From NCBI GenBank assembly GCA_021299695.1, contig JAJTEK010000012.1, forward strand, positions 1 to 63,387: 63,387 nucleotides of DNA. The letters are read 5' to 3'. Position 1 is the stretch's first letter, and each line of letters opens with the position of its first letter. This DNA is from Pirellula sp. GTDB lineage: Bacteria > Planctomycetota > Planctomycetia > Pirellulales > Pirellulaceae. The position numbers were made by a program, and so were the translations under genes. This document shows, one piece after another, positions 1 to 14,768 of the stretch. Under the pieces are notes generated by a model. That model worked only from the letters and a program-made list of their open reading frames with translations, was not told where the DNA came from and made no database searches.

Positions 1-300
1 CACCAGGAGCCTCTTGCCTGGTTCTTGGACTTGGCGACCTTAGCGTCTTTGCGGTGAAATCCGATTCCCAACGATTCTCAAGAAGATACTGTCGCACAAC
101 TCGGCCCGACCGTCCGCAAGCGTGCCAAACTCACCGCCAAGGCGCAAAGTTCGCCAAGGCTAAGAGGGGCGCCGTAGCGAAAACAAGGTTCGGTTCAACT
201 CCGCATTGGGTTTAGCTTGGCGACCTTAGCGCCTTTGCGGTGAATCGAATTCCCAACGATGCGCAAGAAGATACTGTCGCGCAACTCGGCCCGCCATCTG
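1..300. repeat. Dispersed intergenic repeat (CTTTGCGGTGAA family), copy 1
   Basis: This stretch alternates two related motifs in opposite orientation: TTGGCGACCTTAGCG followed by TCTTTGCGGTGAA (near 41-57 and again near 217-245), and the inverse form CTCACCGCCAAGGCGC with AAGTTCGCCAAG (near 131-160). Bases 1-114 recur apparently without mismatch at 8623-8736, and the same motifs recur at 2391-2670. It contains no convincing gene. Such motifs are common non-coding repeats in several bacterial genomes; their role is not known to me. The element probably continues to the left of the window. Confidence 0.85.
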
Positions 301-626
301 GGGTGGTTGTTTCCGCCATTTCAACGCGGGTCGGTAATATCTTCAAAGTGAGCTTAGTACATACAAATGACTGAGATTTCTTTGGTCGAACTCCATTGGG
401 AAAAGGGTTTGCAACTCCACTCCCTCCGAATGGAAAGGTTGCTTTTTCGAAGTCTCACGCTACACCTAGAATGAATAGGTCCGACGTTCGTTTGCCCTGT
501 GCGTTGGACCAACCAGGATTAGGTGTGGCTATCCTGATCTGGAGCGAGTGGAACACAATTTCGTTGATCGTTCGCATGGTGTCCGTAGCATCGATTTTCA
601 TCATCCTCTCGATAGAGTTGGTGGCC
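301..626. other. Intergenic region upstream of the sigma factor gene, nothing recognised
   Basis: An open frame runs through much of this stretch in phase with the downstream sigma factor, but its translation has no match to sigma region 2 or any family I know, so I read it as leader DNA and not as coding sequence. I found no clear promoter, RNA gene or repeat copy here. Confidence 0.5.
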
Positions 627-1217
627 ATGAGTCTTGAACAGCAACTCCGCGAATTTGCGAAACAAGCTTGCTTGGGCGATGCTCATGCCATGGATCGCTT
701 TGCTCGCCTGTCTATGATTCTCGCCAAACTCATCGCGCGCGAACGGCTTCACGGTAATCGGTTGGCTCGCTGGATGGACGACAGCGACATCGCGCAAGTC
801 GTTGTCTTTCGCGCCTGTCGCCGTGTCACCAATGCGGAGCAGCACGCCGAAGTCGCCAACTGGTCCGCCATGCTGAGGAGGATGACCACGAACGCCATCG
901 CGGATCAAGCTCGCATTGCTCGACGCGATTTGATGTGCCGACAGGCACCGCCCGTGCCGGCCACCCGTTCGCGGAACTCGATCGATTTGCTTGAGGATCG
1001 GTCCGTCTCGCGCAGGTTCGACGACGAACGGCAAGATCTTTTGGCTTCGATCGAATCGCAAATCACTCCTCGATTACTCCCTATCTGGCAAATGCGCCGC
1101 AACGGTTGCACTTGGACAGAAATCGGCCGTCAGGTGGGCACGAACCCGCAAGCCCTCCGCGTGCGATTCAACGCCATGCTCCGAACCGTCGCCAAGTCGC
1201 ACCATCTACGTGACTAG
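627..1217 (+). CDS. ECF-like RNA polymerase sigma factor
   Basis: This 196-residue protein has the two-domain plan of an extracytoplasmic-function sigma factor, which would direct RNA polymerase to a small promoter set. Residues 52-60 (DSDIAQVVV) followed by an Arg-rich helix fit region 2, where the core-binding and -10 contacts lie, although the usual 'DAEDLVQE' is degenerate. Residues about 153-190, with a CTWTEIGRQVG helix-turn-helix, fit region 4 (-35 recognition). I chose the ATG at 627 because homology begins there; the frame is open upstream to 396 with other possible starts. No anti-sigma gene is adjacent. The next gene, on the same strand 236 bases on, is a PEP-CTERM protein, which may or may not be a target. 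Confidence 0.75.
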   Translation: MSLEQQLREFAKQACLGDAHAMDRFARLSMILAKLIARERLHGNRLARWMDDSDIAQVVVFRACRRVTNAEQHAEVANWSAMLRRMTTNAIADQARIARRDLMCRQAPPVPATRSRNSIDLLEDRSVSRRFDDERQDLLASIESQITPRLLPIWQMRRNGCTWTEIGRQVGTNPQALRVRFNAMLRTVAKSHHLRD

Positions 1218-1453
1218 CGATGCTAACCTTCTGCATATGTTGGTGATCATTGGACAGCAACTTTTTTCCGTCAAAGTAAAGTTGTCGCCCAGGGTTCGAT
1301 TGACCAAAATGAAAATCGCTGATGGAAACTTTTCGCGTTTTTAACTTTTTTTGCTTTTTAATATGCGCTCTTTTCTGCATCCAGCGTCTTGTTCATTGGG
1401 AGAGTCAGGATCTTCCGGATTCCAGTAGCTTCTTTTTGTAGGTAGGTAAACAC

Positions 1454-2059
1454 ATGCAAAGATTATTGTTTGTCGCTTTAGCGTTCTGTACTATCGGTTC
1501 GGCAAATTGCTTCGCAGCAGTCATCACACTCAAGTTTTGTGGGGTATTTGAAAATGCTTTAGCCGGGAGTGGGGTTTTGGACGGATCCTTTTTGACTTTT
1601 GATCAATCACTCGTAAATAACGTCGGGAGCAATTACGGTTTGACTAACGCGAACATAGTGACTCGCAGAACGGATCTAGCTCCCTTTCCTTCAGATCTCA
1701 CCTACACAATGGCGAATTTTAACTCGATAGTGATGCCAACAACCAGCGTCACCAGCGTTGTGGGGCCAGGCACCCGCACCTTTCCGGAAACGGTAAAGGG
1801 ATGGAGTTTCTTACTGTTAGGTCAAGGTGAGTTTTTCGCTGTATTTCCCGAAAATTGGTTGACCACTGTTATGGTCGGGGACACACTTTCCAACAATTAC
1901 ATCACCGAGTTCAGGTCGGATGGATATCTTGCGGATGCTGATGACATTAGGGCAGTTCCTGAACCATCTGGGTTGGCCATTTTCGGATTAAGCTCAGCGT
2001 TTATCTTCCTGAAGAGGCGCTTTAAAAAGCGGACTAATTCAGTTGCTTTCAGTAGCTAA
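1454..2059 (+). CDS. PEP-CTERM sorting domain protein (exosortase substrate)
   Basis: This 201-residue secreted protein has an N-terminal signal peptide (about residues 1-21, ending CFAA) and a C-terminal PEP-CTERM signal: the tetrad VPEP near residue 168, a hydrophobic helix, then a basic tail with KRRFKKR. In this family an exosortase (EpsH type) cleaves at the motif and the body is exported to the surface or matrix; no exosortase gene is in the window. The central part is rich in Thr, Asn and Ser with no recognised domain. A Shine-Dalgarno-like AGGTAGG sits just ahead of the ATG. The gene and the 236 bases before it look more A/T-rich than the core genes further right, which fits an accessory origin. 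Confidence 0.85.
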   Translation: MQRLLFVALAFCTIGSANCFAAVITLKFCGVFENALAGSGVLDGSFLTFDQSLVNNVGSNYGLTNANIVTRRTDLAPFPSDLTYTMANFNSIVMPTTSVTSVVGPGTRTFPETVKGWSFLLLGQGEFFAVFPENWLTTVMVGDTLSNNYITEFRSDGYLADADDIRAVPEPSGLAIFGLSSAFIFLKRRFKKRTNSVAFSS

Positions 2060-2164
2060 GTATTTGAGGACGGCGAAAGACCAATAGGAAATTTGTTTCC
2101 TGCTGAGGCTAACACTACGATGAAGAAGACCATTTCGTCAACATCGCTCTAAATCCTCTAGAGA

Positions 2165-2189
2165 AAACCCGGGGACAGTCCCCGGGTTT
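2165..2189. repeat. GGGGAC-A-GTCCCC palindrome, copy 1
   Basis: A 12+1+12 perfect palindrome with AAACCC outside and GGGTTT on the other side of the core GGGGACAGTCCCC. It lies about 100 bases after the PEP-CTERM gene. It could form a strong hairpin in RNA from either strand. This is the leftmost of ten copies seen between here and 9682. Confidence 0.95.
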
Positions 2190-2248
2190 ATGAAGGTTTT
2201 GCCTGCTCTTGGCTGTTTGGTTTTAGCCCAGAGGGCGGCACTTCTCTG

Positions 2249-2269
2249 CCGGTGTGCGTAAGCCACCGG
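2249..2269. repeat. Short hairpin CCGGTG/CACCGG
   Basis: A six-base stem (CCGGTG at 2249-2254, CACCGG at 2264-2269) closes a nine-base loop. It lies in a stretch with 'gcgtaagcc', resembling widespread planctomycete intergenic hairpins; a related motif (gtggcgcaagccgtgggct) occurs near 9210-9230. There is no T-run after the stem, so a terminator role is not supported. Confidence 0.45.
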
Positions 2270-2390
2270 ACCCGGGCAACAACGCAACCGCTCTGCTTTC
2301 CGAAGAGGCGCTAGCATCCATTTAAGATACTTCGCATTTAAAAGAATATCTTATTTAGCAAGCAAATACTCTGCCTCTAAAATACCACCT

Positions 2391-2670
2391 AAGCGCCCCA
2401 AACTCACCGCCAAGGCGCAAAGTTCGCCAAGTTCAAGAGGGACGGTACAGCGAAAACAGGGTTCGATTCAACCCCGTACTGGGTTTACCTTGGCGACCTT
2501 AGCGTCTTTGCGGTGAATTCTGTTTCCCAATGATTCGCAAGCGGTCACTGTCGCGCAACTCGGCCCGACCGTCCGCAAGCGTGCCAAACTCACCGCCAAG
2601 GCGCAAAGTTCGCCAAGTTCAAGAGGGAAGGTATAGCGAAAACAGGGTTCGATTCAACCCCGTAAATCGA
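2391..2670. repeat. Dispersed intergenic repeat (CTTTGCGGTGAA family), copy 2
   Basis: The stretch holds two direct copies of an arm starting CTCACCGCCAAGGCGC and running to 'gaaaacagggttcgattcaa' (about 2402-2480 and 2588-2666), with one inverted arm (TTGGCGACCTTAGCG, TCTTTGCGGTGAA) between them at about 2490-2517. It shares these motifs with 1-300 and 8623-8736. The next 155 bases, up to the stop of the STAND gene at 2826, hold no recognised feature. Confidence 0.85.
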
Positions 2671-2825
2671 ACGTGAAGTCATAACCTCAGTCAGTCGATG
2701 CAACTTCAGCATCCTAGGGCTGCGAACCAGATCAGATGGCCAGGTCAGTTGCAGCGATTTGGTTCGGAGGCATCCTTGCGCCGATCGCACGCAATCGAAA
2801 CTAACACCGGCCGGCGATTGACTTT

Positions 2826-4718
2826 CTATCGACTCCCCGTTCCCGACGGTAGCCGGCTCACGTGCGCGGCCACAAACTGGGCGAGGTGGCTATTCTGCCG
2901 GAGGCGACAAGCTCGTTGTATGTCGTCACGCAACCCGAGAATGACCTCGTCCTCGTGGTCCCGCCGGTAACACTCGAGGGAGAGAGATACGAGAAAATCC
3001 TGAAGCGCCTTGTGCGTGAAGTACAGTCGCTCTTGCCCAAGTATGGTGTTGACAGAGGCGACAAAAAGGCCGCAACTTCTGACGTCATCCTTTGTCGCAC
3101 CGTCCGGGAATGCGACGGAGAAAAAGCCCCTGGCCTCGTTCCAGCTGAAAGTGGTGAACTCTTCACGCCTCGAATCGCCGGGTGCTGAGTTGCCTATTTC
3201 AACGCGGGCCTCGTCGATGCACAGCGCGCAAAGCATTAGGGCAGTCATCATTCGTGCCCACCACTCCCGGCTGGCGAGATCGGACCCCGGCAGGCTGCGC
3301 GTCGCGACCTCCCTGTCGCGCAGCACCTTGCGACGGATGTGCCCGAAGAGCACTTCGGCCCGATTCAAGTCCCGAATGCCGTTTTCCGCCACGTCCTCCA
3401 TGAGGTACTTGAAAAGGAGCGGGTTGTCCAGACTGTCCCCGTAATGTTCTCGGGCCTCTCCCGAGAGTAGCGCCGACCGCAACTCTGTCCACCTGGCAAC
3501 GGTGGTCTGGTCAGGTGAACTCTTCCAGGGGAGGGCGGGCTCACAGTTGATGTCGATGAGCTCGACAAGGTGTCGAATGCCCCACGGTTGGAGTTCGACC
3601 TTAGTGACGGTACGGAGACTCATCTGGGCGCACAACCGCCTCATCGAAGACTCGTAACGCCCCAGTTCCGCATCAACGAACTCACGGCGGACCGTGAAGA
3701 CGATGTTGCAGCCGAGGCGCCCCGCAACGCCGGCCAACTCGGCGAACCCGTCCGGCGTGCAGAACAACCGGTGCTCGTCAAGCCCGTCAAAAATGATTGT
3801 CTTGCGCCAATTTCTGTCCTTGAGAACGTCACCCATCGCTTCGACAACATACTGGAGTTCCTCTTCGGGGCCGACACTTGAGGGTCCCAAAAAAACCAAC
3901 AGCCATGTCAGCACATCGTGGACCGACAGCGGGTGTGCCCACCGCATCGGAAGCTCCCGGCACGGCAGGGAAAAGCACGACCCTTGTGACCCGGTAACGA
4001 GGCAGCCGACGGCGGTCGATTTGCCCGCCCCGAACATGCCGGTCAAAAGCGTCACCCGACCCTCGCCTTCGGGTGCCGACAAATCGTGGAGGTCGAAATA
4101 CTCGTCCGTCCTCTCGTCACGAGTCACCGCCCCTGCGGCATCCTCTAAACCGATGGTAGTCACGCGGGCCGGCACGCGCGGAATGACCTGGGTTTCGGCG
4201 AACACCGTTTGTAAAGCTCCGATGTGCTGCGTGACCGTCTGAATCTGAATGTCCTTATCGATTCGCTCCTTCGTCTTATTCCACGCAAGTTCCACAAGTT
4301 CGGCGGGAGACACTACATGATATGACAGTCCATGTCGGCCCGCAGAGAGCGGGGTTAGCAACTGACGCAGCTCCGCCCAGTCACCAGGGGTGATCCCCGT
4401 GGCATTTATGGCGTACACGAACGTACGCAGATCAAGGCCCGACCGGAGGAGTTTATCTACATCGGCCCGCATTTGCCCGACCAGCCAATCGATAGGAACA
4501 GGTATGCGACGGGTGGTCTTGCACTGAAAAGCTAGTTCAACGTTTCCGAACCGATCGAAGCTGACGAGATCCACGCCCGCTTTGTCGAGCGGTGACATTG
4601 GCGGGACTTGTCGCACGCCTGGCCACGCCGGGCGCAGAACCCGCTCGCAGATCGCTTCGAACTCTCGCCCGAAGCAGACGCTCAGATCCGCCAGCAGCGC
4701 CGTCCACTTCGGTCCCAT
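2826..4718 (-). CDS. STAND/NACHT NTPase with N-terminal Mrr-type nuclease domain (Avs-like, putative antiphage)
   Basis: This 630-residue protein joins an endonuclease-like domain to a signalling NTPase. Residues about 15-100 fit a PD-(D/E)XK fold of Mrr type: Asp50 in GVDL, then Gln65-Cys-Lys67 (FQCK). The P-loop is GMFGAGKS (227-234), the Walker B is the NACHT-typical FDGLDEH (310-316), and TVRRE (342-346) supplies a sensor arginine. A motif near the C-terminus (FTHKALQDFL) matches the winged-helix end of NACHT modules. No TPR, WD40 or leucine-rich repeat tail follows, so what it senses is unclear. In known Avs and related STAND proteins, ligand binding drives oligomerisation and effector activation. 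The start is firm: AGGAGG lies eight bases before the ATG. It stands alone between palindromes, next to vapBC. An antiphage role is inferred. Confidence 0.8.
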   Translation of the reverse strand: MGPKWTALLADLSVCFGREFEAICERVLRPAWPGVRQVPPMSPLDKAGVDLVSFDRFGNVELAFQCKTTRRIPVPIDWLVGQMRADVDKLLRSGLDLRTFVYAINATGITPGDWAELRQLLTPLSAGRHGLSYHVVSPAELVELAWNKTKERIDKDIQIQTVTQHIGALQTVFAETQVIPRVPARVTTIGLEDAAGAVTRDERTDEYFDLHDLSAPEGEGRVTLLTGMFGAGKSTAVGCLVTGSQGSCFSLPCRELPMRWAHPLSVHDVLTWLLVFLGPSSVGPEEELQYVVEAMGDVLKDRNWRKTIIFDGLDEHRLFCTPDGFAELAGVAGRLGCNIVFTVRREFVDAELGRYESSMRRLCAQMSLRTVTKVELQPWGIRHLVELIDINCEPALPWKSSPDQTTVARWTELRSALLSGEAREHYGDSLDNPLLFKYLMEDVAENGIRDLNRAEVLFGHIRRKVLRDREVATRSLPGSDLASREWWARMMTALMLCALCIDEARVEIGNSAPGDSRREEFTTFSWNEARGFFSVAFPDGATKDDVRSCGLFVASVNTILGQERLYFTHKALQDFLVSLSLECYRRDHEDEVILGLRDDIQRACRLRQNSHLAQFVAAHVSRLPSGTGSR

Positions 4719-4776
4719 GTCCGTTGCCTCCTGTGATTCGTTGGATAGCCTCTCCGGCCGGTATCAACTGTGAATT

Positions 4777-4809
4777 GACAAAACGCGGGGACAGTCCCCG
4801 CGTTTTGTC
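4777..4809. repeat. GGGGAC-A-GTCCCC palindrome, copy 2 (33 bp, perfect)
   Basis: A perfect 16+1+16 palindrome centred on base 4793: GACAAAACGC precedes and GCGTTTTGTC follows the GGGGACAGTCCCC core. It begins 58 bases upstream of the STAND start codon and ends 7 bases beyond the vapC stop. As RNA it would make a GC-rich hairpin followed by TTTT in either direction, so it may end vapC transcription and insulate the STAND gene. Confidence 0.95.
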
Positions 4810-4816
4810 TAAGATC

Positions 4817-5224
4817 TCAATCGAACGGGTTGACAACTTTGACGCCTGCAAACGCAAAGTCCTTGGCGTTCCTCGTTGCGATGGGCAATTGGAACTGGCG
4901 AGCCGTTGCGGCGATGAGACTGTCTTTGACCGGCATGGCACGCCCCTGTTTTCTTAAGTCTGCCAAGAGTTGTGCCCAATTCTCCGAAGTCGTCGCGTCG
5001 AAATCCAGCATCTGCAAATAGCGAATACCCGATTCAAGCCATGCGAGCAGCTCGCTACGCCTCTTGCCTTTGGGTAACATGAGGATTCCAAATCGCAGCT
5101 CACCAAGAACAATCGGATTGATCGCTAATTGTGTCTCGTGCGCCGCAAGCCACCCGACTACTTTCGGGTTAGGGTTGAGCTTCGTCGCTTCGCTGAGCAC
5201 GTTCGCATCCACCAGAAACTTCAT
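4817..5224 (-). CDS. vapC: VapC-type PIN-domain toxin ribonuclease
   Basis: This 135-residue protein is a PIN-domain ribonuclease, the toxin of a type II toxin-antitoxin pair; family members cleave tRNA or rRNA using Mg2+. The start MKFLVDANVLSE carries the first catalytic Asp, the central Glu lies in LGELRFG, and later acids in PVKDSLIAATA and NAKDF complete the acidic site. The ATG at 5224 overlaps the antitoxin stop as ATGA, so the two genes are translationally coupled; an in-frame upstream start (5266) would lie inside the antitoxin gene and is not needed. A 33-bp palindrome begins directly after the gene. Confidence 0.93.
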   Translation of the reverse strand: MKFLVDANVLSEATKLNPNPKVVGWLAAHETQLAINPIVLGELRFGILMLPKGKRRSELLAWLESGIRYLQMLDFDATTSENWAQLLADLRKQGRAMPVKDSLIAATARQFQLPIATRNAKDFAFAGVKVVNPFD

Positions 5225-5454
5225 AACAAGGAGTCCGTCGATTCCGATTCGACCGGCTGAAACCAATCAGGCGAAGGGCACTGGGCAAGCCACTGGACCA
5301 ACCCTGGCTGCCCTGGTTTGCGAATCTTTTTCAGCAAATACTCACCTTCCGAAATTCGTTCAATCTCGAATACCTGGCCCGGCACCAAATGATCTGCCTC
5401 ACGCAGTTCAACCGGCAAGACGATTTGTCCTTTGGAAGATAATTGTGTGTTCAT
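5221..5454 (-). CDS. vapB: VapB-type antitoxin, AbrB/MazE (SpoVT) fold
   Basis: This 77-residue protein has the swapped-hairpin DNA-binding motif of the AbrB/MazE superfamily near its start (LSSKGQIVLPVELREA, about residues 5-20), followed by a second strand pair and a C-terminal tail rich in Pro, Ser, Asp and Trp that would wrap around the toxin. It should neutralise the VapC next to it and repress the shared promoter. It is the first gene of the pair and ends in an ATGA overlap with vapC. Nested inverted repeats directly upstream of its start are a likely operator. Confidence 0.92.
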   Translation of the reverse strand: MNTQLSSKGQIVLPVELREADHLVPGQVFEIERISEGEYLLKKIRKPGQPGLVQWLAQCPSPDWFQPVESESTDSLL

Positions 5455-5457
5455 CCA

Positions 5458-5477
5458 CAGTAAGATACTGTCTTACT
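5458..5477 (-). promoter_or_regulatory. Candidate vapBC operator (nested inverted repeats)
   Basis: Two overlapping palindromes lie 4 to 23 bases before the vapB start: CAGTA-aga-TACTG (5458-5470) and AGTAAGA-tactg-TCTTACT (5459-5477). AbrB-type antitoxins typically bind such repeats over their own promoter. No footprint is known for this site; the role is inferred from position and symmetry. Confidence 0.6.
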
Positions 5478-5488
5478 TAGACGAAGTC

Positions 5489-5540
5489 AAGCAAACAGCC
5501 GACTTTCTCCGTTGCCGACCGAGATCGGCAGCGTCGTGAG
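5489..5540. repeat. 52-bp direct repeat, copy 1
   Basis: The segment beginning AAGCAAACAGCCGAC and running through 'gttgccgaccgagatcg' to 'cgtcgtgag' recurs at 9432-9483 in the same orientation with two or three differences. It is non-coding and lies between the vapB upstream region and a longer inverted repeat. Confidence 0.85.
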
Positions 5541-5650
5541 CCAACCAGCGCCAGCGGTTGGGCGATTTGACTAAGCCCGCCAGGAAGCTGCGTTTGGGCC
5601 CGAGCAGGATAAACAACCAAAAAACTCGGGGACAGTCCCCGAGTTTTTTG
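5538..5650. repeat. About 110-bp inverted repeat, left arm (includes palindrome copy 3)
   Basis: This segment, from GAGCCAACCAGCGCC through 'ggttgggcgatttgac', 'cccgccaggaag' and 'gagcaggataaaca' to the palindrome, is found again in reverse complement at 9655-9764 with few differences. The two arms are 4 kb apart and enclose the composite repeats, the three-gene operon and the microprotein gene. A degenerate partial copy may lie near 9255-9295. Confidence 0.85.
5619..5649. repeat. GGGGAC-A-GTCCCC palindrome, copy 3
   Basis: A perfect palindrome centred on base 5634: six A, then CTC, the core, GAG and six T. The A-run and T-run make it look like an intrinsic terminator on both strands. It sits between the vapBC upstream region and the first composite repeat. 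Confidence 0.95.
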
Positions 5651-5942
5651 AACACCGATCCGTAACCGGATCGTTTGCCCCAACGGGGCAAAATGAGATA
5701 GCCCAGGGTAGAGCGAAGCGCCACCCTGGGTCGTACGCGACCGCCCTAGGTAGGCCGCCGCCCCAATTCGCCAAAGCCCTGAAAGGGCGAAACATGTGCG
5801 CATTGATTGACGCACCGCCGGTTCCGCCCTTTCAGGGCTTGGGTTGTTTCGCGCACACGAATCCCAGGGCGGGCTTCGCTTTGCCCTGGGCTATCACCCG
5901 CCGCCCCGTTGGGGCATAAGACGATCGGGCAAACACCATCCC
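5651..5942. repeat. Composite inverted repeat of three hairpin pairs, copy A
   Basis: About 290 bp built as a large imperfect inverted repeat whose two arms each hold the same small palindromes in mirrored order. From the outside in: GCCCCAACGGGGC with GCCCCGTTGGGGC, then an arm around GCCCAGGG with GAAGCGCC and its complement, then GCCCTGAAAGGGC with GCCCTTTCAGGGC around a short centre (GACGCACCGCCGG). Copies B (5984-6276) and C (8207-8556) follow. Open frames cross it in several phases, but they follow the repeats and show no codon signature, so I read it as non-coding. Confidence 0.88.
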
Positions 5943-5983
5943 GAATAACCCACCGCAACTTGGGTCGCCTGCGATGTGCAATC

Positions 5984-6276
5984 AACACTGATCCGTAACC
6001 GGATCGTTCGCCCCAACGGGGCATAATGAGATAGCCCAGGGTAGAGCGAAGCGCCACCCTGGGTTGTACGCGATCGCCCTGGGTACGCCGATGCCCCAAT
6101 TCGCCAAAGCCCTGAAAGGGCGGAACATGCGCGCATTGATTGACGCACCGCCGGTTCCGCCCTTTCAGGGCTTGGGTTTTTTCGGGCACACCGAATCCCA
6201 GGGCGGCGCTTCGCTTTGCCCTGGGCTATCACCTTGCGCCCCGTTGGGGCGTAAGACAATCGGGCAAACGCCATCC
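5984..6276. repeat. Composite inverted repeat, copy B
   Basis: This copy shows the plan best. GCCCCAACGGGGC (6010-6022) is the reverse complement of GCCCCGTTGGGGC (6238-6250); ATAGCCCAGGG (6031-6041) pairs with CCCTGGGCTAT near 6219-6229; GCGAAGCGCC with GGCGCTTCGC; and GCCCTGAAAGGGCGG (near 6109-6123) with CCGCCCTTTCAGGGC. The whole could fold as one long cruciform or as separate hairpins. A leader shared with copy C (cccaccgcaacttgggtcgc, about 5949-5968) precedes it. The palindrome at 6280 follows at once. Bases 6311-6399 hold nothing recognised. Confidence 0.9.
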
Positions 6277-6279
6277 TTA

Positions 6280-6310
6280 AAAAAACTCGGGGACAGTCCC
6301 CGAGTTTTTT
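6280..6310. repeat. GGGGAC-A-GTCCCC palindrome, copy 4
   Basis: A perfect palindrome centred on base 6295 with A-run, CTCGGGGAC, A, GTCCCCGAG and T-run. It lies 90 bases past the stop of the three-gene operon, in the place expected for that operon's transcription terminator. Confidence 0.95.
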
Positions 6311-6399
6311 AATTGCTCTGGTCCCAATGCAATATGACGCGATGTGAAAAATCGTTTTAATGAATTGGCGGACTGGCAAACGTTTTCCGGAGTCGCCTA

Positions 6400-7080
6400 T
6401 CAGACCGCTGGTCGAGGAATAATCTGGAATGAACACTGGCGTATCGGATAGATAATGTTACCGATCTTAAGCGTTCTTTCTCCAAACAGAGCAAATGCGA
6501 AGTAATTGCCAGCGTTCTCTGTACTACTCACTGGAGGGTGTGCTAGTACTTTGAACCCGCTTTCCTGATAATCGACGATGTCATTTCGATTAAGCTCTCC
6601 AGGCCCCATGTAGTGTGTTCCCTTAGTTTGTAGGAGCCGAATTCCGTTGCTCAAACGCCGATAGACTGTCCGTGGGTGTATGCCAGTTTCTTCGGAAATC
6701 TCTTTTACTGACTTGCCATCCAACGCTGCTTCGATTACGGATCCAACCGCGACAGATAGCTTCCGTAGGTTGTATTTTAAGTCAATTAAGTCATCCTGCG
6801 TGAACTTCGGGTCAGCAACCGGCTTTTCGTATTTGCGTCGATTTTTTTCATACGCCCTTGCGATTCGCTTTCGCACGCGAGATATCAAGGTACTCAATTT
6901 AGAAGGTGACTCCTTTTCAGAGAGAATCTCCAGAACAATCATGGATGCCATTTCTTCGCGCTCAACGTCAAGCTTCCTAGCCAGCGAAATAATCCATTGC
7001 AGATCTCTAGGCTCGAAGCTGATACCTTTCTGCAAACAAAGGTCGGCGAGAACGTCTAGCTCAAGTCCTAGGGGGTACAT
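6400..7080 (-). CDS. Sigma-factor-like protein with C-terminal extension (third gene of the overlapping operon)
   Basis: A 226-residue protein I place only as sigma-like. Residues about 35-90 (DVEREEMASMIVLEIL, then a basic stretch VRKRIARAYEKNRRK) resemble region 2 of ECF sigma factors. Residues about 115-150 (AALDGKSVKEISEETG then HPRTVYRRLSNGI) form a clear helix-turn-helix of region 4 or LuxR type. The last 75 residues have no known match and may be a sensor or effector tail. The gene overlaps the one before it by 20 bases, so it belongs to the same operon. Composition looks A/T-richer than the core genes, as for its two partners. It could act as the transcriptional regulator of the module. 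Function uncertain. Confidence 0.6.
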   Translation of the reverse strand: MYPLGLELDVLADLCLQKGISFEPRDLQWIISLARKLDVEREEMASMIVLEILSEKESPSKLSTLISRVRKRIARAYEKNRRKYEKPVADPKFTQDDLIDLKYNLRKLSVAVGSVIEAALDGKSVKEISEETGIHPRTVYRRLSNGIRLLQTKGTHYMGPGELNRNDIVDYQESGFKVLAHPPVSSTENAGNYFAFALFGERTLKIGNIIYPIRQCSFQIIPRPAV

Positions 7081-7459
7081 CTAACTTCCAAACAATAATG
7101 TGCGATTCGATCCAGTTCGCCTCAAACCACACTTCCACACTGTCCATAACTCCGTCAATTATAGTCCATTGGGTTTTGTCGCTATGGCGAAAACTCCAAG
7201 GTGGTTTCTTGTGCTTCACGACGTATAGTAACGCTCGGACTTTATCAACAATGCCTGATTGTAGCCACTTATTCCAGTGCTTCCCCAGTTCCTTTGAAAA
7301 CTCGAGCCACATCTCCGGATCGAATTCCACTGAAAGTTTTTCTTCGACTGCGAGCCCTTCAAGCCACTTTAGAAGCCGACCGGCAGCCTCGTCTCCGTAG
7401 ACTTGTCGGAATTTAGCAAACTCCGATTGCGCAGACCTCTTGAAGTGAACTGTTGCCAT
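7061..7459 (-). CDS. Uncharacterised 132-aa protein, possible RelE/ParE-like toxin (second gene of the operon)
   Basis: I do not recognise the family. The start (MATVHFKRSAQSEFAKF) looks like the first strand and helix of RelE/ParE toxins, and a later strand-rich half (VRALLYVV ... WSFRHSDKTQWTIID ... VEVWFEANWIESHIIVWKLDV) could supply the remaining sheet, but the middle is longer and much richer in Trp than in that family. No catalytic residues can be named. The start overlaps the previous stop as TAATG and the end overlaps the next gene by 20 bases, so the three products should be made together. A toxin role is an inference from layout (small protein, downstream of an antitoxin-like gene). 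Confidence 0.55.
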   Translation of the reverse strand: MATVHFKRSAQSEFAKFRQVYGDEAAGRLLKWLEGLAVEEKLSVEFDPEMWLEFSKELGKHWNKWLQSGIVDKVRALLYVVKHKKPPWSFRHSDKTQWTIIDGVMDSVEVWFEANWIESHIIVWKLDVPPRT

Positions 7460-7737
7460 TACTGCACGGAGTTCCCGTCAATGTCAACGATCCCTTCGCT
7501 TGAACGCGAGAGAAGCTCATCTAGGATTTCTGGCCTACCGGCTAACCTGTGCAATATCCTGTCGTACAAATCAGCACGAAGCTGTTCGCTTGATACGACA
7601 CCACCGATGACTTCATTGTCGTCGAGAATTACTGCTCCGCTTCCGTGCGCCTTGCTCCGCAATTGCTCCACAAACCGCTTGTAGGCAACTTCGTCTTTGA
7701 ATAGATCACGGCATTTATCGAGTGCCATAACGCTCAT
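7459..7737 (-). CDS. Small protein, possible antitoxin (first gene of the operon)
   Basis: A 92-residue protein with no confident family. The middle (GAVILDDNEVIGGVVSSEQLRADLY) resembles the strand-turn-strand-helix of Phd/YefM-type antitoxins, preceded by a charged helical stretch and followed by a short acidic tail. I chose the ATG at 7737 because AAGGGGA lies seven bases before it; the frame is open to another ATG at 7773 that lacks such a site. It opens the overlapping three-gene operon (TAATG with the next gene). An inverted repeat 38-53 bases upstream may be its operator. Confidence 0.55.
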   Translation of the reverse strand: MSVMALDKCRDLFKDEVAYKRFVEQLRSKAHGSGAVILDDNEVIGGVVSSEQLRADLYDRILHRLAGRPEILDELLSRSSEGIVDIDGNSVQ

Positions 7738-7774
7738 TTCAATTCCCCTTTTCTTGGCGATCACTGGGTGCATT

Positions 7775-7790
7775 CCGGTTACATACCGGT
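7775..7790 (-). promoter_or_regulatory. Candidate operator upstream of the three-gene operon
   Basis: CCGGT (7775-7779) and ACCGG (7785-7789) form an inverted repeat with a five-base spacer; the same bases also give a direct repeat CCGGTT-acat-ACCGGT. It is 38-53 bases before the chosen start of the first gene, where a promoter would be expected. Binding by the antitoxin-like or sigma-like product is inferred only. Confidence 0.4.
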
Positions 7791-8126
7791 TGCGACTCCA
7801 TCAGTAAGGGACAGCTCGTCTCCCTTTTTTGTCAAACAATAATCAAACCGCATGGAAGACGTAAGTCCTTTTCGGGGATAGCTTTGCGTTCGATCGAACC
7901 CGGATTGCAGGCGAAAAATCCCGAGATTTTCTCCGAAATTCGCCACGGCCGCTCGAAAACGCCCCCAAAAAACATCACGCCGCACCCCGGTGCTACTGCG
8001 TAAGTGTACAGGAGCCTTGAAGTGGACCCCATTATTCGGACCACGGGCGGCCCCGCATTTGATAGCGGCCGCCGGTCGTTTTCGACCCCGTGCGATCGAA
8101 CAGCGGGAGCGATGCCCATTCCAAAT
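7791..8126. other. Intergenic stretch, nothing firmly recognised
   Basis: An open frame of about 140 codons crosses this region on the minus strand but runs into the palindrome and composite repeat, and its product has no recognisable domain. Near 8020-8045 the text 'gaagtggaccccattattcg' recalls the ends of some IS3-type elements, but no second end, target duplication or transposase remnant can be seen. I regard it as non-coding. Confidence 0.5.
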
Positions 8127-8159
8127 TAAAAAAACCGGGGACAGTCCCCGAGTTTTTTT
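8127..8159. repeat. GGGGAC-A-GTCCCC palindrome, copy 5
   Basis: Centred on base 8143, with A-run and T-run; one mismatch breaks the outer stem (ACCGGGG against CCCCGAG). It lies between the upstream region of the three-gene operon and composite repeat C. Confidence 0.92.
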
Positions 8160-8206
8160 GATCGTGAGTAACCCACCGCAACTTGGGTCGCCTGCTATTT
8201 GCAATC

Positions 8207-8556
8207 AACACCGATCCGTAACCGGATCGTTTGCCCCAACGGGGCATAATGAGATAGCCCAGGGTAGAGCGCAGCGCCACCCTGGGTCGTACGCGATCGC
8301 CCTGGGTACGCCGACGCCCCAATTCGCCAAAGCCCTGAAAGGGCCGAACATGTGCGCATCGATTGACGCACCGCCGGTTCCGCCCTTTCAGGGCTTGGGT
8401 TGTTTCGGGCACACCGAATCCCAGGGCGGCGCTTCGCTTTGCCCTGGGCTATCCCCTTGCGCCCCGTTGGGGCATAAAACCATCGGGCTTCGTTCAATGA
8501 ACCATCGATCCCTGCGCCCCGTTGGGGCATAAGATCATCGGGCAAACGCCATCCTG
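8207..8556. repeat. Composite inverted repeat, copy C
   Basis: Same plan as copies A and B, preceded by the shared leader (cccaccgcaacttgggtcgc at about 8172-8191). It is longer because the right outer hairpin, GCCCCGTTGGGGC followed by 'ataa' and 'catcgggc', is present twice (about 8461-8488 and 8516-8542). This internal duplication suggests growth by slippage or recombination between short repeats. Confidence 0.88.
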
Positions 8557-8560
8557 AACA

Positions 8561-8585
8561 AAACGCTGGGACTGTCCCCGCGTTT
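8561..8585. repeat. GGGGAC-type palindrome, copy 6 (degenerate)
   Basis: AAACGCTGGGAC, T, GTCCCCGCGTTT: one mismatch in the left arm, and the central base is T where most copies have A. It follows composite repeat C directly. Confidence 0.85.
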
Positions 8586-8622
8586 CCCCCCGTGTTTTGT
8601 CTATGCACGATAGGCGGATCCG

Positions 8623-8736
8623 CACCAGGAGCCTCTTGCCTGGTTCTTGGACTTGGCGACCTTAGCGTCTTTGCGGTGAAATCCGATTCCCAACGATTCT
8701 CAAGAAGATACTGTCGCACAACTCGGCCCGACCGTC
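8623..8736. repeat. Dispersed intergenic repeat (CTTTGCGGTGAA family), copy 3, identical to 1-114
   Basis: The 114 bases starting CACCAGGAGCCTCTTGCC match window positions 1-114 with no difference that I can see and in the same orientation. Such identity over 8.6 kb suggests recent duplication or gene conversion. Deletion between the two copies would remove most of the island. Confidence 0.9.
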
Positions 8737-8808
8737 TACCCCATCACTAGATACTCAGTGCTCGCAGAAACAACTGGCAATCGAAGCATATCCCACTTAC
8801 TAACAACC

Positions 8809-8839
8809 AAAAAACTCGGGGACTGTCCCCGAGTTTTTT
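8809..8839. repeat. GGGGAC-T-GTCCCC palindrome, copy 7
   Basis: Perfect palindrome centred on T8824, with A-run, CTC, core, GAG and T-run, 42 bases past the stop of the small membrane protein gene. It is placed and built as that gene's terminator would be. Confidence 0.94.
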
Positions 8840-8881
8840 AGCCCAAACGAAACCAGGATGAACCTCCTTAGGAAGATAGAA

Positions 8882-9052
8882 TCAAGATCCTATCCTCTTC
8901 TTTGCTACCCCCAGACCAATAGCCAGAAAGACCATCGATATCGCGAAGAACGTAACATTGAACTTACCTCCCATAAACATCGGTAAGACCGCGGCGTCCA
9001 TAAACAAAAAAGCTGTTATCAAAAAAGCCGATACGCGATTTTCTCTTGACAT
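8882..9052 (-). CDS. Two-helix membrane microprotein (56 aa)
   Basis: A 56-residue protein with two likely membrane helices (about residues 8-25 and 30-50), joined by a short turn with MGGKF and ending in a basic tail (KKRIGS). I chose the ATG at 9052 since GGAGGTG lies about ten bases before it, which also argues that the gene is real. An in-frame start at 9139 would add 29 residues with no membrane signature and is unlikely. I do not know the family. It stands alone between palindromes, like the other island units. Small hydrophobic proteins in such settings can be toxins or abortive-infection effectors, but nothing here shows that. Confidence 0.6.
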   Translation of the reverse strand: MSRENRVSAFLITAFLFMDAAVLPMFMGGKFNVTFFAISMVFLAIGLGVAKKRIGS

Positions 9053-9167
9053 TGATTCCACACCTCCAAATCCTCCACCTTTTTCCCTTCGTGCAATCAT
9101 TATAGTGTTGAAGCGCACGCACCGCATGCTTCTTCGCAACAGTCCACTATTTTCTAAATAAACTTGA

Positions 9168-9197
9168 GAAACATCAGGGGACAGTCCCCGAGTTTTT
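9168..9197. repeat. GGGGAC-A-GTCCCC palindrome, copy 8 (left arm degenerate)
   Basis: The core GGGGACAGTCCCC and right arm GAGTTTTT are intact, but the left arm reads AACATCA where AAAAACTC is expected, so the outer stem is lost. Confidence 0.88.
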
Positions 9198-9398
9198 GGG
9201 TGTTAGCCGCGTGGCGCAAGCCGTGGGCTATTTCGTTTAACCCGCAGCCAACGGCGAGGAACTTAACCAAGCCCGCCAGGATGCTATGTATGGGGTCGAA
9301 ACGAGTTTGTGTTGCTACTGGTAGCAAGGACGTCAGCGAGCAGCCGATCGACTGGCAGAACTGCGCGGTGTGACATCCTACCTTTCGCCCAAGATCTA

Positions 9399-9427
9399 AA
9401 AAACTCGGGGACAGTCCCCGAGTTTTT
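9399..9427. repeat. GGGGAC-A-GTCCCC palindrome, copy 9
   Basis: Perfect palindrome centred on A9413 with A-run and T-run. It directly precedes the second copy of the 52-bp direct repeat (9432-9483). Confidence 0.94.
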
Positions 9428-9431
9428 GGTT

Positions 9432-9483
9432 AAGCAAACAGCCGACTTTCTCCGTTGCCGACCGAGATCGACTGCGTCGTGAG
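9432..9483. repeat. 52-bp direct repeat, copy 2
   Basis: Same orientation as 5489-5540, beginning AAGCAAACAGCCGAC, with a few differences near its end. It follows a palindrome here, whereas copy 1 precedes one. Confidence 0.85.
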
Positions 9484-9653
9484 ATTACCAGGGGCGGATT
9501 ACGGGATCGCCTGCGGCGTTTGAGGGATTGGGGTGCGCGTGGGTTTTGTGTCGGAAAGTAGGTGGTCTCATCACCGGTACGTGCGGGCTCGGAGGCCCAC
9601 ACTACGGACTAATTGGCTACGCGACGCTGAAAGTGATTGATCTGAATGGCTAG

Positions 9654-9682
9654 AACAACTCGGGGACAGTCCCCGAGTTTTT
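9654..9682. repeat. GGGGAC-A-GTCCCC palindrome, copy 10
   Basis: Centred on A9668; core and GAGTTTTT arm are intact, and the left arm AACAACTC has one change from the consensus. It is the last copy seen in the window and forms the edge of the right inverted-repeat arm. Confidence 0.92.
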
Positions 9683-9764
9683 GGCTGTTTATCCTGCTCG
9701 AGCCCAAACGCCGCTTCCTGGCGGGATTCGTCAAATCGCCCAACCGCTGGCGCTGGTTGGCTCA
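9655..9764. repeat. About 110-bp inverted repeat, right arm
   Basis: This is the reverse complement of 5538-5650, differing at only a few positions (for example CGGCGTTTGGG against CTGCGTTTGGG when read in the left-arm direction). With the left arm it encloses about 4 kb; recombination between the arms would invert that part. Confidence 0.85.
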
Positions 9765-9884
9765 CAGGGTCGCTAAATGGTATCATCTCAGTCGTTGCGG
9801 ATTCCTGATTCTCAACCCCTCCCCCCCATCTAATCCTCCCGAATCATTCCCCCTAGGCTCTGTGACATAGGCTCTGTGAACACC

Positions 9885-12800
9885 ATGGTGCTTCGATCCT
9901 CGCTGCTGTTGATCTCGCTTTGGTCAACCTGGTGCTCTTGGTGTATCGGACAAGAATCACCGCCCCCTGGCATCGCCCATACCATCGATCTCGGAAACCG
10001 CAGGGAACTGTTTGTCGACCGGTTTTTGATCGAGTCCCTCGACGGTCTGTCTCATAAACTCCATGAGCCCAAAGCGACCGAACCCATGGAACAACCGGCC
10101 GACCCCATGGAGTACGGGACGATCATTCAGGACGGCTCCCTTTTCCGTATGTACACCCGCGATGGCCGCGGGGCACGATTCGACGGAGATCAGACCGAGG
10201 TCACCCGATACTGCGAAAGCAAGGATGGAATCCATTGGACCAAGCCGAACCTGGGACTGGTCCAAGTCGATGGATCCAATGAAAACAATGTCGTCTTGAA
10301 CGAAGCTCCGTTTTGCCACAACTTTGCTCCCTTTCTCGATGAGAATCCAGTCGCGCCCAAAGAGGCACGCTTCAAGGCGCTCGCCGGAACGGTCAAATCC
10401 GGATTGGTCGCGTTCCAATCCGCAGATGGCATCGCCTGGTCAAAAATCCGCAATGAACCGGTGATTCAATACACCAAAGAATACGCATTCGACTCTCAAA
10501 ACGTCGCGTTCTGGTCCGCCCACGAAGGGCTCTACGTGTGCTACTTCAGACACTTCCTCGACGGCAAACTGCGTTCGATCTGCCGCACAACCTCCAAAAA
10601 CTTTATCGATTGGACCGAACCCATCGCGATGCGCCCCAATTTGCCCAATGAGCATCTCTACACTTCATTGACTCACCCTTACTTTCGCGCCCCACATATC
10701 TATATCGCAACCCCCACACGCTTCTTTCCCAATCAAGGCGATCGAACGGACATTCTCTTCATGTCCGCAAGAGGTGACCAACCCTTCGATCGGACGTTTC
10801 GCCAAGCGTTCCTTCGGCCAGGTTTGGATGGCGATCGGTGGGGAAACCGCGCGAACTATGCCGCTTGGCATATCGTCCAGACCAGCGATAGCGAAATGTC
10901 CCTCTACACGACCCCCTTTCGGCGATTCACTCTGCGACTCGATGGATTCGCCTCGATCCACGCCGATGCCGATGCAGGACGGATGACATCCAAGGTCTTT
11001 ACAATGGCTGGTGATCGTTTGGTCATCAACGCTTCGACCAGCGCCGCAGGTTCCATCCGCGTCGAATTGACCGATCCGCAAGGTAACCCTATCGAGGGCT
11101 TTGCCTTCGAAGATTGCCAGCCGTTCGTCGGTGATGCGATCGATGCGACGGTGACTTGGTCGTCCCAAACGGCACTGCGCGCATTGGCCGGCCGCCCCAT
11201 CCGCGCCCGATTCGAAATGACCGATGCGGATCTTTACGCAATCGAATTTCCAGTCGATGAATCAAGCCGAGTCGACTTTCGACAACAGGTCCGCCCGATC
11301 CTCGAGCAACGATGCTTCGCTTGCCACGGCGCACTCAAGCAAGAAGCCGGCTTGCGATTGGATTCCGCTACGGCAATCCACCAAGGGAGCAGTTCCGGGC
11401 CCGTGATCGAAACGAAGGACGCAAACTCAAGCGTCCTTGTTCGACGAATCCTCGCTGAGGATCCACAAATTAGGATGCCCCCCGAAGGCCACTCGCTTGC
11501 CGAATCTCAGATTCAAACCATCCTCGCTTGGATCGAACAAGGTGCACAGGTTCCCCGGATCGATTCCCCGGAACCGGATCCTAATGAGCATTGGGCTTTC
11601 CAAATCCCTGTTCGACCCAAAATCCCCAACCTCCAACCCTCGAACGCTCCGATCCATCCGGTCGATGCGTTCTTGCAAGAGTCCTGGCAATCCGAAGGTC
11701 TCGTTGGGCAACCCCAAGCCGATCCGTATACCCGACTGCGGAGAGTCTACCTCGACCTTATCGGGCTGCCACCTAGCCCAGAGTCCCTCGCCGATTTCTC
11801 CCGAAATCCTTCCCAAGAAAATTACGAACAGATCGTCGATAAACTGCTCGCTTCTCCCATGTACGCAGAACGCTGGGCTCGGCATTGGATGGATGTTTGG
11901 AGGTACGCAGACTGGTTCGGCAGACGGTATGTACCCGACGTTTGGAACAGCGCTCCACAGGTTTGGCGCTGGCGCGATTGGATCGTCGAGTCCCTCAACG
12001 CCGATGCGGGTTACGACCACATGGTCACTCAAATGCTCGCGGCCGACGAAGTCAACCCAGGTGATCCGAAATCGAATGTCGCTACCGGTTACCTGGTTCG
12101 AAACTGGTATGCATTGAATCCCAACGACTGGATGCGCAGCAACGTCGAGCATTCGAGCAAGGCTTTTTTAGGTTTGACGTTCCACTGTGCCCACTGCCAT
12201 GACCACAAATACGATCCGATCAGCCAGGAAAACTACTTTCAATTGCGAGCCTTCTTCGAACCGATCGCGGTCCGGCAGGATCGACTCGCCGGCCAAGCAG
12301 ACCCCGGGCCGTTTCAAGAGTACGAGTACAGCACCCTGCGAAAAGTACAACGCCTCGGTCGGGTGGGCATCTATGACAAATCACCCGATTCGCACACCTG
12401 GTTTTATACCGGAGGAGACGAGCGGAATCGACAAACCGACCGCGGATCGGTCTTGCCCAATGTACCGGATTTCCTCAAAGCCGCTTTCGAGCAACCGATC
12501 GAACCTGTCTCTCTACCGACGACAGCCTGGTACCCTGGTCTCGATCCTGAAATTCTAAAAACGGTGCTTATGGAAGCAGACCAAGCCATCGCGCAAGCGC
12601 AAACCGAACTCGATGCGTCAACCGCCGCGTCCTTGGCAGCGCAAGCGGATGCAAACAAAAGCGATGCAAGCCGAGCCCTTGAGCAGGAGGCACTCGAAAC
12701 GGCCAAGATCCTTGGCCGACAGATCCAGGAACTTCAGGCCGCCCACAGCCCCGAGGAGACCGGGATCCTCAGCGGCCGGCAATCGCTCCTGATGGATGCC

Positions 12801-14729
12801 TCGCAAGGTCGACGCATGATCTACCGGAGCGTCCCTGAGATCTCTTCGGTCCAGGAAGACGATCGCATCGAATTCCTGGTCCAAATCCTAGCCGACACGC
12901 ACTGGAATTTTCAGTTGACTCGCGACAACTCCACAGGTGCCACGGCCACCTACATCGGTTTTGAAAAGGGGCAGATCAAGTCCTACAAACCCGCGTCGTT
13001 CGATGAGTTCGAGGTCGGTAAGTTCGATCCGCAAACTCCCGATGTCCTGGCCGTTGAACTGACCTTGCACCCCAAGGACGATCGGTGCACGCTCAAGGTG
13101 CACTCTCTTAAGGACCAACGAGTGCTGGTCGAAGGACTGAGCGTTGCACTCAATGGATGGAATCCTCTCGGGGATCCGACCAAGGGGATTTTGTTCGACG
13201 CTCGGCCCGGCTCGATCGCTGCAATCGACGATTGGCGTTATCGCAGGAAAGTTCCAGATGGACCAAATGGACCAGATGGACCAGATGGAGTCGGACCAGC
13301 CGAGTCGATCCTGGAATTCACGTTCGAGACTCCCGAACACGCCGACAAGGATCTTGTCGGAATCCTCGAATGGACCTCAGCTCAAAACTACTCGATCGCC
13401 CCTGCCAGGTCGGTGATAGTTCGCAAGTTGCCATCGTTGCACTTGAGCAAACTCCAACAGGAGCTTGCACGCGCTCAGCGGTCCATCGATCGAATGCGAC
13501 TGCCGACCGAAACGGCCAGAGCCAAGCTCGAGTCGAGCCAAGCCAATCGCCGCCAACTCGAGTCGCGAATCGAAGCCGAGAGGCTCAAGTACATGGCAGA
13601 CCCTCCCTCGAGTCTTGAATCGATCCAACGCTCGGCGCATCGAGCCATGATCGACGAGAAAAACGCCGAGTTTGCAAGACAACGGGTCGAATGGCACGAG
13701 GCCAGAAAGCAATTGGCCGACGTCGAAGCGAAACCGCTCGGGGATTCCAATCGAGCGAAAGAACTCGATACTGCGAATGCAAGATGGGCCAAGGCCCAAG
13801 TGGATTTCGAAGCGGCCAGACAGGTGCTCGACCAAAGCGAGCAGATCGCACCCGAGCAAGCGACCTACAAGCCACTTTCACCGCAGTATCCGCGGACCAG
13901 TACCGGGCGTCGACGCGCCTTGGCCGCTTGGATCGCTTCCTCTAAAAACCCACTGACGGCTCGAGTCGGAGTCAATCACATTTGGATGCGGCATTTCCAC
14001 GAACCGCTGGTCAAAACCACTTTCGATTTCGGACGCAATGGCAGCTTGCCAACGCATCCGAAATTGCTCGATTGGTTGGCCGTCGAATGGATGGAATCCG
14101 GTTGGAGCATGAAGCATTTACACCGATTGCTTGTCACGAGCCAAGCTTACCAACGCGAGTCGGTTGTCGCAGAGAATCCCTCGCAGATCAAAGATCCTCA
14201 AAACCAAAAGTACTGGCGAATGAACGCAGGACGCATGGAGGTCGAGGTTCTACGCGATTCGATCCTCGAAATCGCCGGCAAGTTGGATCCCGAAATGGGC
14301 GGACAGGAGTTGGAGAACAAAGATATGTTTTCTACGTCGAGGCGCACGCTCTATTACTCGTGTCAACCTGAAGAAGATGGCAAGAGCGCTTTGGGCATGC
14401 TCTTTGATGGACCCGATGCGAGCGATTGCTACCGCCGGACCAGGACCGTTATCCCCCAGCAATCGCTGGCGCTGACCAATAGTCCTCTGGTCCACGAGGT
14501 TGCGCCACAGATCGCTCAGCGGATCGAGTTGAGCTTGTCACAAACAGACCGAAGCGACGCAGGTAGATTTCTCGATGCAGCTTATACGCTCCTATTGAAT
14601 CGGCCAGCAACCCTTCAGGAAAGGGAATTGTGTTTGGAGTATCTGAACTCCTCAAGCGATTCAACGTCCCAGCGATCGAGCTTGATTCGCGTCCTATTGA
14701 ACCACAACGACTTTATCACGATCCGCTAA
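9885..14729 (+). CDS. Secreted propeller/PSCyt1/DUF1549/DUF1553 (PSD1) multidomain protein
   Basis: About 1,614 residues. After a signal peptide (to about residue 25), residues about 30-430 look like the beta-propeller glycosidase-like module frequent in planctomycetes (ELFVDRFLIE, then SKDGIHWTKPNLG). Next is PSCyt1 with a haem-c motif CFACH near residue 480, then PSCyt2/DUF1549 with a second CAHCH near 770 (CHDHKYDP), a middle part with coiled-coil stretches (about 890-950 and 1200-1330) around a concanavalin-like segment, and a PSD1/DUF1553 domain to the end. Families of this type are thought to serve periplasmic electron transfer linked to polysaccharide use; the substrate is unknown. A GTG nine bases earlier (9876) could also start it. 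A nine-base repeat codes GPNGPDGPDG near 13258. It is followed 39 bases on by its usual DUF1501 partner. Confidence 0.9.
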   Translation: MVLRSSLLLISLWSTWCSWCIGQESPPPGIAHTIDLGNRRELFVDRFLIESLDGLSHKLHEPKATEPMEQPADPMEYGTIIQDGSLFRMYTRDGRGARFDGDQTEVTRYCESKDGIHWTKPNLGLVQVDGSNENNVVLNEAPFCHNFAPFLDENPVAPKEARFKALAGTVKSGLVAFQSADGIAWSKIRNEPVIQYTKEYAFDSQNVAFWSAHEGLYVCYFRHFLDGKLRSICRTTSKNFIDWTEPIAMRPNLPNEHLYTSLTHPYFRAPHIYIATPTRFFPNQGDRTDILFMSARGDQPFDRTFRQAFLRPGLDGDRWGNRANYAAWHIVQTSDSEMSLYTTPFRRFTLRLDGFASIHADADAGRMTSKVFTMAGDRLVINASTSAAGSIRVELTDPQGNPIEGFAFEDCQPFVGDAIDATVTWSSQTALRALAGRPIRARFEMTDADLYAIEFPVDESSRVDFRQQVRPILEQRCFACHGALKQEAGLRLDSATAIHQGSSSGPVIETKDANSSVLVRRILAEDPQIRMPPEGHSLAESQIQTILAWIEQGAQVPRIDSPEPDPNEHWAFQIPVRPKIPNLQPSNAPIHPVDAFLQESWQSEGLVGQPQADPYTRLRRVYLDLIGLPPSPESLADFSRNPSQENYEQIVDKLLASPMYAERWARHWMDVWRYADWFGRRYVPDVWNSAPQVWRWRDWIVESLNADAGYDHMVTQMLAADEVNPGDPKSNVATGYLVRNWYALNPNDWMRSNVEHSSKAFLGLTFHCAHCHDHKYDPISQENYFQLRAFFEPIAVRQDRLAGQADPGPFQEYEYSTLRKVQRLGRVGIYDKSPDSHTWFYTGGDERNRQTDRGSVLPNVPDFLKAAFEQPIEPVSLPTTAWYPGLDPEILKTVLMEADQAIAQAQTELDASTAASLAAQADANKSDASRALEQEALETAKILGRQIQELQAAHSPEETGILSGRQSLLMDASQGRRMIYRSVPEISSVQEDDRIEFLVQILADTHWNFQLTRDNSTGATATYIGFEKGQIKSYKPASFDEFEVGKFDPQTPDVLAVELTLHPKDDRCTLKVHSLKDQRVLVEGLSVALNGWNPLGDPTKGILFDARPGSIAAIDDWRYRRKVPDGPNGPDGPDGVGPAESILEFTFETPEHADKDLVGILEWTSAQNYSIAPARSVIVRKLPSLHLSKLQQELARAQRSIDRMRLPTETARAKLESSQANRRQLESRIEAERLKYMADPPSSLESIQRSAHRAMIDEKNAEFARQRVEWHEARKQLADVEAKPLGDSNRAKELDTANARWAKAQVDFEAARQVLDQSEQIAPEQATYKPLSPQYPRTSTGRRRALAAWIASSKNPLTARVGVNHIWMRHFHEPLVKTTFDFGRNGSLPTHPKLLDWLAVEWMESGWSMKHLHRLLVTSQAYQRESVVAENPSQIKDPQNQKYWRMNAGRMEVEVLRDSILEIAGKLDPEMGGQELENKDMFSTSRRTLYYSCQPEEDGKSALGMLFDGPDASDCYRRTRTVIPQQSLALTNSPLVHEVAPQIAQRIELSLSQTDRSDAGRFLDAAYTLLLNRPATLQERELCLEYLNSSSDSTSQRSSLIRVLLNHNDFITIR

Positions 14730-14768
14730 GGCCACGCGCCGGCCGACGGCGCCCCATGGAGCGACACG

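Follow-up and report, generated by a model that had tools for sequence, protein, structure and literature searches.

A compact protein with a likely Mrr-like nuclease domain and STAND motifs, probably an antiphage protein, at a variable site in Pirellula

The 630-residue protein described here is probably a divergent STAND nuclease that acts against phages as a single protein and is encoded in a variable defence site; we put the probability of this reading at about two in three. Its gene lies near one end of the window, the whole stretch of 63,387 nucleotides of Pirellula sp. DNA that we analyzed. The N terminus carries an Mrr catalytic pattern, STAND motifs follow it in order, the chain ends shortly behind them, and the flank that holds the gene is occupied by known defence genes in two relatives. 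Coordinates are collected in Table 1.

Table 1. Features of the nuclease-STAND gene and its surroundings (positions in the window)
Feature	Position	Strand	Details
STAND nuclease gene	2826-4718	minus	630 aa, ATG start, stop TAG; from the ORF list
Mrr-like PD-(D/E)XK domain (likely), residues 1-160	4239-4718	minus	own Mrr profile; match proper is residues 8-69, including Asp50 and Gln65-x-Lys67
STAND/NACHT-like module, residues 227-578	2985-4040	minus	motif positions; weak profile and Pfam matches; NPLL motif included
C-terminal tail, residues 579-630, 52 aa	2829-2984	minus	behind the winged-helix motif; no recognised sensor
Palindromic repeat, CGGGGACAGTCCCCG type	4775-4806	.	between PIN toxin gene and STAND gene
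VapC-like PIN toxin gene	4817-5227	minus	Pfam PIN E 1.4e-11
VapB/MazE-like antitoxin gene	5221-5454	minus	Pfam MazE_antitoxin E 2.4e-5, 24.6 bits, slightly short of the cut-off of 24.7
Palindrome where the G010 match stops	5616-5647	.	G010 runs on into a type I restriction-like gene
Conserved anchor gene of the site	9876-14729	plus	96% in G010, 92% in G018

An earlier, sequence-only reading of this DNA had described a 630-residue frame with its own strong ribosome site, and both descriptions are borne out: the frame is real, with the strand, start and stop given in Table 1, and an AGGAGG lies 8 nt 5' of the ATG. Among the open reading frames overlapping the first 9 kb of the window it is the longest in the ORF list. 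Its third-position GC of 0.71 is the highest among the listed non-overlapping window ORFs of at least 80 aa. The codon score is 0.034 and falls inside the range of eleven window genes (-0.001 to 0.239); codon usage thus gives no sign of foreign origin.

We analyzed the N terminus with a profile built from the Mrr_cat proteins of relatives, found at 20 loci in 40 genomes. Nineteen of these went through motif extraction (the partial locus L066 was left out), and eight were dropped because the wrong stretch had been cut or the domain missed, leaving 11 cleanly cut domains. Residues 1-160 scored 15.0 bits against this profile, compared with 5.6 bits for the top of 500 shuffles of that stretch. In the alignment, conserved columns of the family are occupied by Phe-Glu (20-21), Gly-x-Asp50 (within GVDL, 48-51), and Gln65-x-Lys67 (QCK, 65-67), and hhalign gave probabilities of 80.8 in local and 38.2 in global mode. 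The PD-(D/E)XK-type N terminus proposed earlier from Asp50 and Gln65-x-Lys67 is thus supported, with these residues on the catalytic columns. The Glu/Phe-Glu, Asp, and Gln-x-Lys elements are in register with those of Mrr-type restriction endonucleases (PF04471), but no PF04471 match, nor one to any other Mrr family in Pfam, was found at E up to 1, and only our own profile of the relatives' Mrr proteins matches. NCBIfam returned nothing for the protein beyond a stray FtsY match (E 0.072), and phmmer against PDB sequences gave no match for the whole protein and one irrelevant regulator (E 0.32) for residues 1-160. Single-sequence structure models were poor, both for the whole protein (pLDDT 38.3) and for residues 1-175 (pLDDT 46.1, pTM 0.43); a Foldseek search with the latter, poor model found nothing at E up to 0.001 and no nuclease among the 50 matches listed. 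Residues 1-160 are likely an Mrr-like PD-(D/E)XK domain, and it is predicted to be an active nuclease because its catalytic residues are intact.

The central part of the protein contains, in order, GMFGAGKS (227-234), IIFDGLDE (308-315), FTVRRE (341-346), and YFTHKALQDFLVS (566-578), which we take to be the Walker A, Walker B, sensor, and winged-helix motifs, respectively. All Pfam matches are under cut-off, with AAA_22 best (E 0.0029), then AAA_16 (E 0.015) and NACHT (E 0.023); the NACHT family PF05729 reaches 15 bits against a cut-off of 26.7. A NACHT search of the organism's own genome (E up to 0.01) listed nine matches, all on contigs other than that of our gene. We scored the whole protein with a profile made from five NACHT sequences (L014, L073, L075, and L077 were left out). 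It ranked first with 12.9 bits; the highest-scoring of the 96 other window ORFs reached 8.5 bits, and 500 shuffles of residues 191-630, the proper control for this profile and a general one for the Mrr profile, gave at most 3.5 bits. The 12.9 bits add up from small pieces, of which the best, at Walker B, contributes 7.6 bits. The NACHT module proposed earlier therefore stands as to its motifs, which are present in order, but its family match is weak. By its motifs the protein is classed as a STAND protein, and its membership of the NACHT clade is likely but falls short of proof, since Pfam stays under cut-off and the profile score is summed from small pieces. In the genus, three long STAND proteins (L071, L072, and L014, from the relatives G009 and G017) have by eye an apparent TIR front and a formylglycine-generating-enzyme-like end.

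The protein ends close behind the winged-helix motif, as had been noted, with 52 of its 630 residues left. The sequence-only reading had placed a possible sensor in the roughly 240 residues after the NTPase core. Since the winged-helix motif reaches to residue 578, a separate sensor domain in that stretch is improbable; most of the stretch is probably the NACHT module's helical and winged-helix portion, with no spare sensor. Pfam, PHROGs, PADLOC, and NCBIfam yielded no family match over residues 579-630. Elsewhere in the protein, PHROGs matched one unknown family over residues 461-514 (E 0.0068) and another at E 0.22.

Avs proteins are STAND NTPases with an N-terminal effector, in some cases an Mrr-like nuclease, and they carry long C-terminal sensor regions. 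The Avs-type layout suggested for our protein holds for the N-terminal effector joined to a STAND NTPase, but the long sensor is replaced by 52 residues behind the winged helix, and PADLOC, Avs models included, matched no family at E up to 1. The clades of bNACHT proteins were reportedly named in a 2023 paper. Closer in layout are bNACHT25 and bNACHT32 (clade 6), which combine an N-terminal PD-(D/E)XK DNase, a NACHT module, and a helical C-terminal NCH1 without long repeats, and in which D48A abolishes defence (PMC12169576); the catalytic Asp48 there compares with Asp50 here. This comparison is one of descriptions rather than of sequences, and our protein differs in having no NCH-type match in Pfam at E up to 1, NCH1 included, and a NACHT match under the Pfam cut-off. 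The clade 14 bNACHTs of the same source resemble it in the short C terminus (SNaCT) behind NACHT but have no discernible effector, in place of the Mrr-like one found here (PMC12169576). Conflict systems with Mrr-like REase effectors and NACHT-clade STAND NTPases (PMC7159879), and further effector-STAND and NACHT defence proteins (PMC8195603, PMC13092281), are described in other papers. A compact nuclease-NACHT protein is thus not an undescribed kind, as had been supposed, given bNACHT25, bNACHT32, and their Asp48 requirement (PMC12169576); the layout is known, and the novelty lies in the sequence family and its genomic place. Nor does the short C terminus by itself call for the dedicated sensing partner that the earlier reading offered as its other option, since bNACHT25 is reported to sense phage via host DnaJ and clade 14 proteins to have short C termini (PMC12169576).

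We searched for relatives of the protein in several genome collections. At E up to 0.001 the whole-genome protein search found it in its own genome alone among 27 of the genus (26 congeners had none), as would be expected of a fast-turnover gene, with the same single hit among 40 relatives, among 392 genomes of the phylum, and among 397 of the class, which are overlapping sets. Relaxing the threshold to E 0.03 gave 8 of 346 genomes of the order, the own genome included; the seven others were rejected by eye as unrelated. A pattern scan of genome contigs returned one locus, by eye an ABC transporter. Nothing in the plasmid and phage collections matched at E up to 0.001, and scans of viral contigs found no relative of the protein. 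With the limit raised to E 10, plasmids yielded five records for the N terminus and four for the whole protein; of two inspected and set aside, one (L010) is a long STAND protein whose repeats are WD40-like and the other (L011) is unrelated. Genomes of other phyla were searched for close relatives only. Within the searches made, the sequence looks unlike any other.

The location of the gene is the best hint that its role is in defence. A sister genome (G010) matches the window at ~96% over 9654-15000 and 5902-8506, with 8507-9653 mostly absent, up to a palindrome. Beyond this palindrome G010 carries a gene that encodes 718 residues or more before running off the contig end and that matches Pfam ResIII (E 2.7e-36) and PADLOC REase_I (E 1.3e-49); the corresponding place in the window holds VapBC and the STAND gene. 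A second relative (G018) matches at 91% over 9841-15000, with a short piece (8869-9204) at 84%; upstream of the anchor gene it carries SIR2 (PADLOC E 1.1e-159) and HerA (E 2.5e-252). HTH-ImmA-like and PIN-like genes are also found in the G018 flank, as are a lipase-like gene and a histidine kinase after SIR2 and HerA. Repeats aside, neither genome matches window 1-5534, be it VapBC, the STAND gene, or the remainder, and a follow-up comparison of 1-5620 found no matching piece of at least 100 nt. The three systems lie at unequal distances of about 3.7, 4.7, and 5.2 kb from the anchor gene; the same site here therefore means the same variable flank. By eye, no known defence system lies beside the anchor gene in the more distant G013 and G001, and G013 has a zeta-toxin-like pair near it; known defence genes thus occur at the site in two of the four relatives examined. 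On the far side, all three close contigs break off, so the site is seen from the anchor side, and assemblies can err at repeats. A sulfatase-like gene beside the anchor gene in G001 and G013 was considered as a far boundary and rejected, because its relative in the own genome sits inside another contig among neighbours of its own. As a separate observation, the clear SIR2-HerA pair of G018 (L042, 10339-13805) adjoins the HTH-ImmA-like and PIN-like genes.

Palindromes are a conspicuous element of this flank. CGGGGACWGTCCCCG occurs in the window in 10 copies at up to one mismatch, all within 2170-9675, where 0.01 would be expected; there are 37 copies in the own genome (G000), 32 in G010, and 16 in G018, and the reversed control gave none. 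The gene had been described as standing alone between palindromes beside vapBC. VapBC and the palindrome at 4775-4806 are there, but the nearest one on the other side (2159-2190) lies 636 nt past the stop, so that the gene is only loosely flanked. Across the genus, CGGGGACWGTCCCCG clusters in few regions, among them G000:C107 at ~32.5-41.6 kb, where an Xre-type HTH gene accompanies an Abi_2 gene (Pfam E 5e-53), and G010:C96 at ~0.3-10.3 kb, with a PARG-like gene. The variable left part of the window also contains direct repeats, one of 300 nt in three copies (5605, 5938, and 8161) and one of 174 nt in three copies (30, 2489, and 8652). A bolder account, which as a whole we consider unlikely, is that the protein represents a new sequence family and works as a minimal nuclease-STAND sensor, whose helical and winged-helix part and 52-residue tail alone would detect infection, directly or via a host protein as with bNACHT25 and DnaJ; as a cassette, its gene would trade places with SIR2-HerA and restriction systems, and a genus-wide palindrome that promotes exchange would bound the site.

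Recombination at the repeats could also have damaged the gene, leaving an inactive remnant of a longer Avs-like gene that has lost its 3' sensor. We regard this as quite improbable. Direct repeats do lie near the 3' end (D2 copy 2489-2662, D4 copy 2577-2704), the C terminus is short, and past the stop the Mrr-STAND frame is not continued in any frame, none running on for long before the repeats. Yet the stop lies ~120 nt outside the nearest repeat copy, the frame is intact behind a strong ribosome site, third-position GC is even along the whole gene (0.66-0.78), and short NACHT proteins are functional (PMC12169576).

The VapBC genes lie directly upstream of the STAND gene on the same strand, with ~100 nt between, and may be co-transcribed with it; a promoter-like site 5' of vapB occurs at near chance frequency (2 found, 0.9 expected). 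This arrangement, in a block that is strain-specific, would also suit a conflict protein that is not antiphage and instead keeps out plasmids or other mobile DNA, or joins VapBC in retaining the island. To this we assign a similarly low likelihood: the alternative occupants of the flank in two relatives are antiphage-type systems, and such roles and phage defence are not mutually exclusive. The genes at 6400-7080, 7061-7459, and 7459-7773 all occur in G010, where the STAND gene is absent, and are thus unlikely to be its dedicated partners. Two of them, at 7061-7773, are small overlapping genes in a toxin-antitoxin-like layout with no Pfam match over cut-off, followed by an HTH gene at 6400-7080. 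Less probable still is that the protein is a restriction enzyme of the Mrr type, driven by an ATPase motor, which recognises modified DNA directly and has no inflammasome-like switching: the Mrr-like N terminus and the generic AAA_22 as best Pfam match would fit it, but the motif order FDGLDE, VRRE, FTHKALQDF is of NACHT/STAND type, and neither Pfam nor PADLOC recognised a domain that reads DNA modification.

For a single-protein antiphage STAND nuclease, the mode of action may be outlined by analogy with bNACHT and other STAND proteins, from which its nuclease activity, oligomerisation, sensing route, and phage phenotype are all drawn. In the resting cell the NACHT-type module would be closed, with nucleotide bound. 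The helical and winged-helix region and the short tail would read the trigger, which could be a product of the phage or a host protein that infection has disturbed. The triggered module would then swap ADP for ATP and oligomerise, and the clustered N-terminal Mrr-type domains would cut DNA, stopping the phage while the infected cell is sacrificed.

If this reading is true, the sequence range of nuclease-STAND defence proteins would extend well past what PADLOC and Pfam recognise. The protein would also provide a very small case for studying how infection is sensed by a STAND protein that has no repeats, and the variable site could be mined for more defence genes of the genus.
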